Virus record (IMG/VR): IMGVR_UViG_3300032116_000645 | Span: 1-36,402 of that record | Length of the DNA stretch: 36,402 nt | From: a virus | Reading direction: 5' to 3' (one strand) | Shown here: positions 1 through 36,402 of the stretch, piece by piece | Layout of the letters: each line of letters opens with the position of its first letter | Position numbering within the stretch: the first letter of the stretch is position 1 | Translations under genes and position numbers: made by a program | Notes under the pieces: model-generated | What the model was told of the DNA's origin: nothing | Databases searched by the model: none | What the model saw: only the letters and a program-made list of their open reading frames with translations

Positions 1-700
1 GGCCGCTAGAGCTACACTCCCCCTCTCCGCACGATGTTGACTCCCCCCTATATTGTTCATTCCTATCCTTGCATCCTGAAGAGTTGGTGTTGGAAGCATC
101 CCATGGAATATCTGCTCCGTTAGACTCCCCGCTACCCATTTCCTTCCTATTGATTCCCTGTACTCTGTCCTTTTTTGGAATCTCTCCTCGGTTGGTGTTA
201 TGTCCATTGTCGTTGGAGTGAGCAACAAACCAGACTCTGTCTCTCCTGTGTGGCGCATTGACGGCTGCAGCTGGAAGTACATACGGTTGGACTTCGTACC
301 CTTGAGCTTCCAGGTCAGCCTGCACCTCATCGAAGACCATCCCTCCATTCCAATTAATAAGCCCGAAAACATTTTCGCCCACAATCCATGTCGGCTGAAT
401 TTCCCGAATTGCTCTAAGCATCTCTGGCCAGAGATGTCTCTCATCTTCTTTTCCAAGTCTTTTTCCTGCCATTGAGTATGGCTGGCATGGGAATCCTCCT
501 GTGAGAATATCAATTCTGTTTGCATACTTTGTAAAGTCCGATTTAGTGATGTCTGTAAATTGTTCAGCTTCAGGCCAATAATAGTGAAGCACCTTCTGCC
601 CAAATGGATTCCATTCGCAATGGAACACATTATCCCATCCCATCCATTGTGCAGCTAAGTCAAATCCTCCTATGCCTGAAAATAGTGAGCCATGCCTCAT
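1..700 (-). CDS. DNA cytosine-C5 methyltransferase, N-terminal part (runs off the left edge)
   Basis: Methylates cytosine C5 in phage DNA, probably to evade host restriction. The ATG at 700 overlaps the stop of the upstream gene (ATGA), and the frame stays open for 233 codons to the edge. Visible motifs in order are SAM-binding motif I LFSGIGGFDLA (residues 6-16), catalytic motif IV GGFPCQPYS with Cys72, motif VI GENV (about 108-111) and motif VIII RRDRVWF (152-158). Motif IX, the full target-recognition region and motif X are absent here. A C-terminal motif X fragment lies on the same strand at the right edge of the window. From about position 221 down to 1 a second frame is also open and reads LLLTPTTMD and MLPTPTLQDA, phrases I recall from the ends of related enzymes. 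The family call is very secure; the true downstream frame is not. Confidence 0.93.
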   Translation of the reverse strand, partial: MRHGSLFSGIGGFDLAAQWMGWDNVFHCEWNPFGQKVLHYYWPEAEQFTDITKSDFTKYANRIDILTGGFPCQPYSMAGKRLGKEDERHLWPEMLRAIREIQPTWIVGENVFGLINWNGGMVFDEVQADLEAQGYEVQPYVLPAAAVNAPHRRDRVWFVAHSNDNGHNTNRGEIPKKDRVQGINRKEMGSGESNGADIPWDASNTNSSGCKDRNEQYRGESTSCGEGECSSSG

Positions 701-33507: not shown

Positions 33508-33765
33508 TTAAAGTTTATGCAAAGATAAGTATTTCAAAATTGCCTCATAAACTTCAAGCTGATTGCGCCATCTGCGCTTGTGTCCAGGAGCAGCATCTTG
33601 GATTAATAGCTTATTTTTTAGCTGAGTTATTTTTCTGCCAAGATAATCCCGGCAGTCTTGACTTGTCATCATAGTTGGTTTAAGTTCGTAAATAAGATCG
33701 CTGCTGTAAGTGCTTTTGCCTTCCCACTGTTGAGGCACTTGACTAATATGGATTTCCTGAATCAT
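33508..33765 (-). CDS. Hypothetical basic protein after DnaB
   Basis: 85 residues from the ATG at 33765 (23-base overlap with the DnaB end). Another in-frame ATG at 33792 adds nine residues but lies further inside DnaB. It is helical, with a basic central region (DYLGRKITQLKNKLLIQDAAPGHKRRWRNQLEVYEAIL). Position after the helicase suggests a replication accessory role such as a loader; nothing in the sequence proves it. Confidence 0.6.
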   Translation of the reverse strand: MIQEIHISQVPQQWEGKSTYSSDLIYELKPTMMTSQDCRDYLGRKITQLKNKLLIQDAAPGHKRRWRNQLEVYEAILKYLSLHKL

Positions 33766-35086
33766 AGTCTGTAAGCTGCATGAGTGGACCATTGAATCGC
33801 AAAGGTATTATTCCTGTGCTGCCAGAGCGCATCTTAACCTGGTCAATCAGGCAAAGGCCAGCATTATGCAATTCTGCGCTGCCGACTTTGGTGGTGGCTG
33901 TTGGCTCAAAGTAGTACTCAGGCCTCATCATCATCCAGATGACATCAGCATCCTGCTCAACTGAACCAGACTCTCGGAGGTCGCTCATGAGTGGCATTTT
34001 ATCACCTCGTTCATCCACTCTGCGGCTAAGTTGAGACAATGCCACCACCGGAATCTGGAGTTCTTTGGCAAGCAGCTTTAGACCTCTGCTTATTTCGCCT
34101 ATGATGTTCACTCGGTTTGTTTCTTTTGGATTGACTGAGTTAATAAGGCCAATGTAATCCACAAACAGCACTCTGATGTTGTGCTTGTTTTTCCACATGG
34201 TGGCCTTAGTTCTGATTTTAGAGATATTGACATATCCTTCATCGCTTATCTTGATAGCCCAAGCCTTCATTGCCTGGATTGCTTCATAGAGATTGTTGCG
34301 GTCAAGGTTAGTCAGTTCACCTTGCTTGATTTTGTAGGCCCAGACATTGGACTCCTGAGAAGCCAACCTCTGCACAAGCTCATGCTTTGTCATCTCAAGG
34401 CTGAACATTCCGCAACCTATGCCCTGCTTTGCCAAATTGCGGATAAGTGTAACCACAAGGGCAGTCTTGCCTTGCCCTGGTCTTGCACCTACAACAGTAA
34501 GCTCGCCATTGGTCAAGCCTCCGCATAAAGTGTCCAAGGCATTGATGCCTGTCCGGTAGCCAGCTATTTCTCCAGGTTTGGCATTAAGCCACATCTTTGC
34601 CGACTCATTGAGCTGCTTCAGGAAGTCATCATCCTGATTGGTGATCGCAGAGGCAAGGAGGTTATCAAACTTGTTCTGATACTGGGCAAAGATTTCAAAG
34701 ATGTCACCTGAGTCGCTCTGAGTGTGCTGATGCAGCTCAATGCTGAGTGCATAAAGTTTTGCCTTCAGATAGTTTTCAATCAACAGTCTGCAATGTGTCT
34801 CCACATGACCAGGAGATTTGAGTGAAGCATAAACTTTGGCAATTGCTTTCACCCCTCCGGCTTCCTTGATTAGGCCCGACTTCTTGATGGTGGCAACTGT
34901 TGTCTCAAGATCAACATGTTCTCCGGCATCTTGCAGTGCAAGAATAGCCTTGGCAATAATCTTGTGCTGTTCAATCTGGAAGCAATCGAGATTAGGCAAA
35001 GTTGAGAATGCCATGAGCCTATCTTCGGCTGATAGCATCATTGCGGAAAGGACTTGCCTCTCCAGTTCTTCATTTTCAAAATTCAT
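33743..35086 (-). CDS. dnaB: Replicative DNA helicase, DnaB family
   Basis: 447 residues, the usual length for a phage DnaB. The N-terminal helical domain (about 1-150) has ERQVLSAMMLSAEDRL and is followed by a linker and the RecA-like domain. Walker A GARPGQGKT is at 200-208, and RNLAKQGIGCGMFSLEMT follows. Walker B VLFVDYIGLI is near 307-316, then VVALSQLSRRVDERGDKMPLMSDLRESGSVEQDADVIWM with the conserved Gln and Arg residues. It unwinds DNA ahead of the polymerase; the phage has no polymerase in this window, so it presumably uses the host's. The start follows the leader AAACCAATAG, which includes the upstream stop codon, 2 bases before the ATG. The first codons MNFEN match the gene at 9433. 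Confidence 0.95.
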   Translation of the reverse strand: MNFENEELERQVLSAMMLSAEDRLMAFSTLPNLDCFQIEQHKIIAKAILALQDAGEHVDLETTVATIKKSGLIKEAGGVKAIAKVYASLKSPGHVETHCRLLIENYLKAKLYALSIELHQHTQSDSGDIFEIFAQYQNKFDNLLASAITNQDDDFLKQLNESAKMWLNAKPGEIAGYRTGINALDTLCGGLTNGELTVVGARPGQGKTALVVTLIRNLAKQGIGCGMFSLEMTKHELVQRLASQESNVWAYKIKQGELTNLDRNNLYEAIQAMKAWAIKISDEGYVNISKIRTKATMWKNKHNIRVLFVDYIGLINSVNPKETNRVNIIGEISRGLKLLAKELQIPVVALSQLSRRVDERGDKMPLMSDLRESGSVEQDADVIWMMMRPEYYFEPTATTKVGSAELHNAGLCLIDQVKMRSGSTGIIPLRFNGPLMQLTDYDSGNPY

Positions 35087-35088
35087 AG

Positions 35089-35760
35089 CTATTGGTTTGA
35101 GGTAAATGTAAAGGATTCGTGGAATCGGTGCGACCGGCCGGCCGGAACTTCTACGGTTTGCTCGTTATTTTTTCTTTTAGGATAATTCGATTGATTCCTT
35201 GCCCAAGTTGCCAACCTTCTTGAAATGTCAAAGAACTTCTCAGCTTGATATCTCATCTTGCCTTTGCCATCCTTCTCCATCCAATAGGCCTGAAAGTCTG
35301 CCAACATTTGCTTGTCATATTTAGACTCGAATAGTGAGAGGTCTGAAAGGTCTATTCCCTCATTCTTTAGTTCTTTAGTTCTATAGTTCTTTAGTTCTTC
35401 TATGTAGGGCAGTGCTTCGTGCTGTGCTTTGGTCAGTGCTTCAGGCAGTGCCTCAGTATCTGCTTTGGTATTTTTGCCCCAAGCAACTACCACAGCTTGA
35501 TGCTGATTGATGGCCTTCTGGACTATTCGTATAAAGCCAAATTCAGCAAGATCATTTAGGCATTTTGAGTATGTCTTATAGTTGCGGATGCCTGTGGCTT
35601 CCATTGTAATTGCTGATGGAAGGCCAAACTTATCCTTTTGACTTAGCTTGTTCCAATGATAGACTAAGTAGAAGTAAAGCTCCGTGTGAGCATGAGTTAC
35701 TTTTTCAGGATGCTGGAATCTGAACTCAAACCAGGCATCTGTTAATTGATAGCCATTCAT
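35089..35760 (-). CDS. Replication initiator-like protein (DnaD/O-like) with internal iterons
   Basis: 223 residues. The N-terminal part has a winged-helix-like region (AWFEFRFQHPEKVTHAHTELYFYLVYHWNKL). Next comes LPSAITMEATGIRNYKTYSKCLNDLAEFGFIRIV, typical of phage initiators that contact origin DNA and hand over to DnaB. The central segment is a tandem of four-residue units (TKAD, TEAL, PEAL, TKAQ, HEAL), which are 12-base iterons at DNA level (35410-35466), and is followed by ELKNYRTKELKN, encoded by 8-base iterons (35365-35396). The C-terminal half has LADFQAYWMEKDGKGKMRYQAEKFF, as in DnaD-type domains. It sits directly before DnaB, with its stop 2 bases from the DnaB start. Its own start overlaps the stop of the 57-aa gene upstream. 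Confidence 0.75.
   Translation of the reverse strand: MNGYQLTDAWFEFRFQHPEKVTHAHTELYFYLVYHWNKLSQKDKFGLPSAITMEATGIRNYKTYSKCLNDLAEFGFIRIVQKAINQHQAVVVAWGKNTKADTEALPEALTKAQHEALPYIEELKNYRTKELKNEGIDLSDLSLFESKYDKQMLADFQAYWMEKDGKGKMRYQAEKFFDISRRLATWARNQSNYPKRKNNEQTVEVPAGRSHRFHESFTFTSNQ
35365..35466. repeat. Iteron cluster, putative replication origin
   Basis: Two sets of tandem repeats inside the initiator gene. The first is four 8-base units CTTTAGTT (35365-35396; the third is CTATAGTT). The second is five 12-base units of CAGTGCTTC type (starting at 35410, 35422, 35434, 35446 and 35458, allowing mismatches). Origins with iterons inside the initiator gene are known from phage lambda O and several siphophages, so this is the leading candidate origin. 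The activity is inferred only. Confidence 0.6.
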
Positions 35761-35930
35761 AGGTATATTCCACTATCAAGTAATATTTGTTCAACTGAAG
35801 GCATATCTAAAAAATTATCGTAAACACCCTCTGCAACAATAGACTCATCCAGCCACACCATAACCTTTACATTGTTAAGTTCTGGACTGTGAGTAATCTC
35901 AATTTTTAATTGTTTAAAAACTAAATGCAT
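35757..35930 (-). CDS. 57-residue hypothetical protein
   Basis: 57 residues, acidic and amphipathic (IEITHSPELNNVKVMVWLDE, then DNFLDMPSVEQILLDSG). The stop overlaps the initiator start (ATGA), so it is the first gene of the replication operon. Its ATG follows the terminator-like stem and T-run of the folded element upstream by about 1-11 bases, so transcripts reaching it must read through or start at the T-run; a TATTTTTA sequence just before it resembles the -7 box. No family is recognised. It could be a small regulator. Confidence 0.6.
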   Translation of the reverse strand: MHLVFKQLKIEITHSPELNNVKVMVWLDESIVAEGVYDNFLDMPSVEQILLDSGIYL

Positions 35931-35940
35931 AAAAATAAAA

Positions 35941-36046
35941 AGTCCTTTGTTCGCCGTTCGGGGTAGCAGACCCTACTAAGCGGACAAAGGACATTAAATA
36001 ATTAAAACTACGCTGCTGCTACCCAGCGGTCTTTCGACATGCAATA
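35941..36046 (-). ncRNA. Folded RNA element with kissing-loop and terminator potential
   Basis: Read on the minus strand after the stop of the 97-aa gene, the region contains three parts. (a) A small hairpin GTC-GAAA-GAC (36038-36029). (b) A hairpin with stem CGCTG/CAGCG (36028-36011) and 8-base loop GGTAGCAG. (c) A long stem of 13 base pairs (35992-35980 with 35954-35942, one G-T pair) whose loop holds CTGCTACCC (35969-35961), exactly complementary to the loop of (b). The long stem is followed by TTTTTATTTTT, so it can also act as an intrinsic terminator. Loop-loop pairing could compete with or stabilise termination. The family is not recognised. Whether it is a riboregulator, a terminator/attenuator or a DNA-level origin or packaging structure is open. 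Confidence 0.55.
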
Positions 36047-36050
36047 ATAA

Positions 36051-36344: not shown

Positions 36345-36402
36345 ATTGGTCTATTGCTTTAAAAATCTGTAACGCTACTTGAGGCACTATGGCATTTCCT
36401 CC
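36331..36402 (-). CDS. DNA cytosine-C5 methyltransferase, C-terminal fragment (enters from the right edge)
   Basis: 23 codons plus a TAG stop. The sequence GGNAIVPQVALQIFKAIDQY is motif X of C5 methyltransferases, which folds next to motif I and usually ends the protein. It runs off the right edge in the direction in which the N-terminal part at the left edge would continue if the genome were circular. The reading frame of the second (LPTPT) frame at the left edge meets it in frame without any added base, but the frame containing the N-terminal motifs does not. A stretch of typical length (about 50-100 residues, the target-recognition end and motif IX) appears to be missing. Confidence 0.85.
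   Translation of the reverse strand, partial: GGNAIVPQVALQIFKAIDQYERL

Follow-up and report, generated by a model that had tools for sequence, protein, structure and literature searches.

We describe a kissing-terminator element in phage DNA: a small hairpin and, behind it, a terminator hairpin whose loop is complementary to the loop of the first. The element heads the DNA-replication genes of many phages apparently infecting Bacteroidota, and it probably decides whether those genes are read. Specifically, the explanation that the sequences lead us to consider probable is a cis-acting transcription attenuator at the entry to the replication operon, in which the 5' hairpin would clamp the terminator by loop–loop pairing. 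The case under study lies in a viral DNA stretch of 36,402 nucleotides (IMG/VR record IMGVR_UViG_3300032116_000645, positions 1 to 36,402), called the window here. At the start of the window (1-700), a DNA methyltransferase gene is cut off, and its C-terminal part seemingly continues at 36402, as in locus L001; because this gene appears split across the window ends, the record seems to be nearly complete and circularly permuted.

Bacteroidota phages are abundant in water and in the gut, and the literature searched revealed no known RNA control of their switch from infection to replication. The element occupies that very point in many of these phages. Lab-cultured phages are among them, so direct testing is feasible.

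Parts of the element

On the minus strand, between a 97-aa gene and the replication operon, the element comprises, in order, a promoter-like box, a GNRA hairpin (P1), a second hairpin (P2), a linker, a terminator hairpin, and a U-tract (Table 1). All of these except the promoter-like box form one structured RNA. The original prediction had named the GNRA hairpin, the looped hairpin, the long stem with a complementary loop, and the U run, and each was located; it had passed over the promoter box before P1 and the U-tract abutting the ATG at 35930. The long stem, counted there as 13 bp, comprises 12 pairs and one C.A mismatch.

Table 1. Minus-strand features of the kissing-terminator element and its neighboring genes in the window
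Feature	Position	Strand	Remarks
97-aa gene	36344-36051		precedes the element
Kissing-terminator element	36049-35931	-	all parts, box to U-tract
Promoter -7 box TATTATTG	36042..36049	-	3 nt before P1; differs from Bacteroidota TAnnTTTG at one position
P1, 3-bp hairpin GUC-GAAA-GAC	36029..36038	-	GAAA tetraloop; putative transcript 5' end
P2 hairpin CGCU-[GGGUAGCAGC]-AGCG	36011..36028	-	loop GGGUAGCAG
Kissing strand GUAGCAG	36022-36016	-	in P2 loop
Linker, 18 nt, A/U-rich	35993..36010	-	P2 to terminator stem; variable in type A
Terminator hairpin, P3 plus inner stem P5	35942..35992	-	P3 = 12 bp plus one C.A mismatch; terminator loop carries CUGCUACCC
P3 stem GUCCUUUGU.CGC / GCG.ACAAAGGAC	35992-35980 with 35954-35942	-	
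P5 inner stem GGG/CCC	35973-35971 with 35962-35960	-	loop UCUGCUAC
Kissing strand CUGCUAC	35963..35969	-	in P5 apical loop; complement of 36022-36016
U-tract UUUUUAUUUUU	35931..35941	-	directly followed by ATG at 35930
57-aa ORF	35757..35930	-	first gene after terminator; no Pfam, no PHROG match; exchangeable small cassette gene
223-aa protein	35089..35760	-	likely replication initiator; weak match PHROG 18020, replication initiation O-like, E 2e-5; no Pfam
DnaB-type replicative helicase	33743..35086	-	PF03796, E 1e-76

The complementarity of the two loops, predicted to be perfect, holds over 9 nt (GGGUAGCAG and CUGCUACCC), and each 9-mer is unique within the window. Three observations place the element beyond chance: the 7-mer pair at 30-60 nt spacing is expected 0.01 times in the window; the predicted fold of 181 nt reaches -47.1 kcal/mol (z = -3.7, with 0/200 shuffles as good); and compensatory changes keep the pairing in relatives. 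The element also has the makeup of an intrinsic terminator, a G+C-containing stem followed by a U-tract.

Three types with one architecture

Relatives carry the same arrangement with other letters. Locus L003, whose 97-aa protein is 69% identical, has the same order of parts with the loops UACGACC and GGUCGUA, and wherever upstream DNA is present for relatives of the 223-aa protein, the element lies at the same place. Pattern scans yielded 57 distinct elements of two types. Type A, the window's type, is represented by 15 distinct sequences and type B by 41; type C, with 12, was recognized by reading loci of the phage replication protein DUF6291 that covariance models R1 and R2 had left unmatched.

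In type A (alignment A2, n=15), 100% of 435 cells are paired, kissing included, against 40-48% in the slid control, and six pairs show double changes. The middle pair of P1 covaries between C-G and U-A. The kissing helix is paired in 15/15 and only one of its seven pairs varies, by compensation: a G-C to C-G change sets the window and L263 apart from the others. In type B, the terminator has two inner stems and a side bulge that pairs with the P2 loop. Here (alignment A1, n=41), 99.9% of 1353 cells are paired (slid control, 28.9-49.5%), with 12 pairs and 148 cells doubly changed; the P2-loop/bulge helix alone shows full pairing (100%) and has 36 doubly changed cells across three pairs. A second covarying pseudoknot joins the linker just before the leader AUG to the P5 loop (mean -5.34 kcal/mol versus -2.35 +/- 0.25 with permuted loops, 0/5000). 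Type C shares the design with no sequence similarity to the other types. Its kissing helix (alignment A5, n=12) is 100% paired, with 5/7 pairs doubly changed (slid control, 26-41%), and P2 and P3, too, emerge from RNAalifold with compensatory pairs. Cell counts are inflated by relatedness among the sequences; independent kissing alleles, of which more than 25 were counted, give the better measure.

Since the pairing persists while the letters change, the alignments identify the kissing contact as a real part of the RNA; the covariation check proposed with the original prediction thus found the loop–loop pairing conserved. Common to types A, B, and C is an architecture and no core sequence, and they display no ligand core of the riboswitch kind. 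At the gathering score, Rfam 15 gave 0 matches for the window and four type B loci (best sub-threshold E 0.66-3.8, implausible), in line with the original prediction, in which the element was not recognized as a known RNA family. Only architecture and complementarity are kept, which shows that a conserved RNA can escape both sequence search and covariance models. Hairpin 2 of L267, in which GATTCGAACC resembles an inverted T-arm, invited comparison with a tRNA; this reading was set aside as the other members do not show the likeness.

Type B also carries a leader ORF. In 40/41 sequences, an AUG in the linker opens a frame of ~31 codons that crosses the terminator. This ORF ends past the ATG of the next gene in nearly all cases (two end just before it), and in about half it overlaps the next start by 4 nt, as ATGA (e.g., L003 3350-3463). 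The leader frame stays open in all 38 distinct sequences even though its phase against the stem takes three values, and the other frames are closed in 16 and 36. Such a pattern suggests that type B terminators are translated through. Type A does not conserve the leader ORF: the window has an overlapping ORF of 26 aa, which was rejected because its start codon is absent from other type A members.

Strand and start of the RNA are indicated by the promoter box. PMC7366714 gives TAnnTTTG as the consensus -7 box for Bacteroidota sigma factors. Among 66 distinct type A/B upstreams, 57 carry it perfectly and 9 with one mismatch (background, 1% perfect), and in 66/66 it ends 3-5 nt before P1; in the window, the promoter overlaps the end of the preceding gene. 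G.U-type pairs are conserved on the transcript strand only, with type B pair 72-126 being U.G in 39/41 and type A pair 49-99 a further case. The position of the box and the restriction of U.G/G.U pairs to one strand together point to an RNA that begins at P1.

These features bear on the suggestion, made as an alternative in the original prediction, that the element acts as DNA, as an origin, packaging, or recombination site. Inverted repeats do adjoin initiator and helicase genes here. Nonetheless, we hold a DNA role to be very improbable, because the element starts with an oriented promoter box and ends in a U-tract, and because the conserved U.G/G.U pairs would be A.C on the other strand. 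Detector matches, furthermore, fall on the sense strand only (0/77 opposite), and one genome can hold several copies before different genes.

The same promoter box and terminator could delimit a free-standing small RNA of ~100 nt that would act in trans on host or phage, with kissing serving to compact and protect it and the downstream genes living on leak-through. Bacteroides small RNAs usually combine a promoter with an intrinsic terminator (PMC7366714), and the 5' end of this RNA would be tucked into P1. We consider this unlikely. The terminator always lies before an ATG, 4-5 nt past the modelled end in most type B members and up to ~50 nt in others. The next ATG follows the U-tract immediately or within ~50 nt, there is little or no space for a second promoter, and none is seen. 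A conserved single-stranded seed is lacking as well, because the loops pair with each other and their letters vary freely from type to type; elsewhere in the genome, nothing matches the window's kissing 9-mer; and the position before replication or HNH genes is kept while the adjoining small genes swap.

Genes behind the element and phages that carry it

The element stands at the entry to the replication operon, as originally predicted for the window, in every type A/B phage with readable downstream genes. The usual order behind it is a swappable small ORF, a replication initiator (the window's 223-aa protein, DUF6291, or a helix-turn-helix protein), and then DnaB, Prim-Pol/DnaB, or VapE-like proteins. 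The type of RNA is exchanged independently of the flanking genes. The small-ORF slot (35757-35930 in the window) holds many unrelated proteins of 55-110 aa across the relatives; these are possible early accessory or anti-defence genes.

Extra copies elsewhere precede HNH endonucleases. Copies lie directly before NUMOD4-type HNH genes in L455 (13733-13822), L130 (6351, minus), and L216 (3705, minus), so the module does not belong to replication genes alone. Tandem copies also occur: phages G015, G016, and G017 have a type A and a type B element ~350 nt apart, each with its own gene and with different kissing letters. In loci L314, L315, L317, and L322, type A and type B elements likewise lie in tandem at a distance of about 350-600 nt, and every element there has a promoter box and a small gene to itself.

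A search by protein alone, with a DUF6291 query from element-bearing phages, gave 79 new loci and one previously found. Models R1 and R2 match many of these directly upstream of the gene, and the architecture was present upstream of DUF6291 in 53/66 distinct loci, compared with 0/76 downstream and 0/77 opposite-strand control stretches. Four of the 13 detector-negative upstreams (L377, L389, L404, and L420) carry the element on reading, and ~9/66 have no recognizable element. Two DUF6291 leaders, in L397 (upstream of 2501) and L402 (~1930), show a promoter box or terminator-like hairpin and no kissing complement; they are possibly degenerate or alternative. An agnostic detector gave 5 matches in 2.05 Mb of other viral DNA, versus 2 in 3.8 Mb of triplet-block shuffles. 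Reading by eye recognized three of the five as members, situated in front of a NUMOD4-type HNH gene or where a contig ends, and placed another ahead of a DUF6291-like protein. Those loci came from a loop-complementarity pattern fetch and are not an unbiased sample.

Cultured phages with the element include Flavobacterium phages 11b (kissing pair CGGGCAGG/CCUGCCCG), and elemoA (UGAGAGC/GCUCUCA), and the Moomin phages; Cellulophaga phages phi13:2 and phi19:3 (CUCUCACAA/UUGUGAGAG); Croceibacter phage P2559S (GUGCAG/CUGCAC); and Olleya phage Harreka (GUGGUGG/CCACCAC). Flavobacterium phages tooticki9-1, filifjonk9-1, and hemulen6-2 share the pair GUGAGACG/CGUCUCAC, and tooticki9-1 and hemulen6-2 have a second copy, GUCGUCG/CGACGAC, before an HNH-type endonuclease. 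P2559S is the weakest named case because its contact is 6 bp only, and the scan at k>=6 has a background of 7 in 3.8 Mb of shuffled DNA.

The element was not found in Nonlabens phage P12024S, Flavobacterium phage 6H (first 40 kb), Cellulophaga phage phi17:1 (first 34 kb), or tant8-1; in three gut phages of the RepA type from Bacteroides, Parabacteroides, and Alistipes; or, read by eye, in Riemerella phages with DUF6291 (L424 and L425). Models R1 and R3 returned nothing real over 395 sampled Bacteroidota genomes, and blastn of the elements against named phages gave only the query's own record and one 29-nt chance match. Of the scans set aside, those for palindromic patterns gave mostly unrelated inverted repeats, yet L130, L170, and L216 among their hits later proved to be members, and one of genome contigs gave simple terminators only.

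We suspect, at somewhat short of even confidence, that these elements exemplify a general class of gene-control RNA in which a 5' hairpin reads the terminator loop of its own transcript by kissing, with exchangeable recognition sequences (over 25 variants seen), deployed as plug-in modules across Bacteroidota phages. The searched literature, which covered few subscription journals or preprints, holds no description of the element; that kissing-read terminators as a class had gone unrecognized is a claim we put forward with the same reserve, as nearly an even call. If the class is general, replication and homing-endonuclease cassettes would share plug-in control modules. Copies within one genome would be mutually orthogonal and, if kissing controls termination, the many natural loop pairs, apparently orthogonal, would make a ready set of parts.

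A possible mechanism and its known counterparts

How might the element work? It would make up the opening ~100 nt of the transcript for early replication, with RNA polymerase starting, as the promoter box suggests, within a few nucleotides of P1. The 5' hairpin P2 would fold at once. As the terminator emerges, its apical loop (in type B, its side bulge) would pair with the P2 loop over 6-9 bp, and this kissing contact would clamp the terminator into a compact RNA. Transcription would then mostly stop at the U-tract, with read-through into the initiator and helicase genes confined to a regulated fraction of transcripts. The clamp might either help or hinder termination, and candidate signals are a protein that reads the kissed loops, ribosomes on the leader ORF, or loops that compete in trans. 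In type B, where the leader ORF runs through the terminator as far as the next start codon, ribosomes translating it could melt the structure and pass on to the next gene by coupling.

The original prediction proposed an RNA switch. A conserved RNA element at the operon entry is borne out; the alternative pairing of a switch is not, since complementarity of the 5' part to the 5' strand of the terminator, as in an anti-terminator, was not found (mean z +0.10 over 29 elements). Thus, the element is not a classical anti-terminator, and its sequence reveals no step at which it would switch. The kissing pair is the sole long-range contact common to the elements. For these reasons, we favor a clamp that would set the level of read-through, and if kissing does control termination, this would be attenuation without an anti-terminator helix.

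Might the element simply be a passive 5'-UTR and insulator, in which hairpins stabilize the mRNA, the terminator blocks upstream transcription, and kissing adds mechanical stability with no regulation? The overlap of the window's promoter with the end of the preceding gene fits this notion, as does the placement of structure at the extreme 5' end. We regard it as improbable: the terminator lies downstream of the element's own promoter and therefore blocks that promoter too, and the covarying long-range kissing, the distinct tandem copies, and the open leader ORF of type B exceed what stability needs.

One variant of the clamped attenuator would tune itself. The terminated RNA carries both kissing strands, and its loops would compete in trans with the contact forming in the next nascent transcript, providing copy-number feedback by analogy with antisense-controlled plasmid rep leaders, the antisense being built into the terminator. 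Placement before replication initiators, as in pT181-type plasmids, and strong predicted duplexes (-9 to -16 kcal/mol) are compatible with such feedback, and different kissing sequences among the copies in one genome would avoid cross-talk. However, the loop sequences within each type are few, widely shared alleles, and intramolecular pairing should win kinetically. We therefore give self-tuning only a slim chance.

Several known RNAs share individual traits with the element. HEARO and IscB omega RNAs adjoin HNH genes, as do those copies of the element that precede NUMOD4-type HNH endonucleases. The element differs from them in size and fold, no IscB gene was seen, and most copies lie before replication genes. 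Purine-type riboswitches have a loop–loop contact in the leader and expression-platform terminators. The element, likewise a leader with a loop–loop tertiary contact upstream of genes, is unlike them in that no ligand pocket is conserved across its types, its 5' loop kisses the terminator, and Rfam offers no match. The put RNA of phage HK022 makes RNA polymerase ignore downstream terminators and is not known to make a kissing contact with a terminator. Types A and B resemble put in that two small hairpins lie side by side where an early phage transcript would begin, but type C lacks the hairpin pair, and the sequences give no indication of RNA-polymerase modification by the element.

With respect to kissing itself, the RNAI/RNAII complexes of ColE1 are read by the Rom/Rop protein, and their loop–loop contacts of ~7 bp control replication. 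The contacts of the element are of similar length; ColE1 kissing joins two RNAs and controls a primer, whereas the element is one leader RNA ending in a terminator. By function, the closest known system is the pT181-type rep attenuator, in which an antisense RNA makes a loop–loop contact with the first hairpin of the leader, the hairpin that holds the anti-terminator sequence (PMC3753616). Both systems place a 5' leader hairpin, loop–loop kissing, and an intrinsic terminator before a replication initiator gene. No leader anti-terminator complementary to the 5' strand of the terminator was found among the 29 elements compared and, finally, while the partner loop of pT181 resides on a separate antisense RNA, that of the element is present in cis, in its own terminator.
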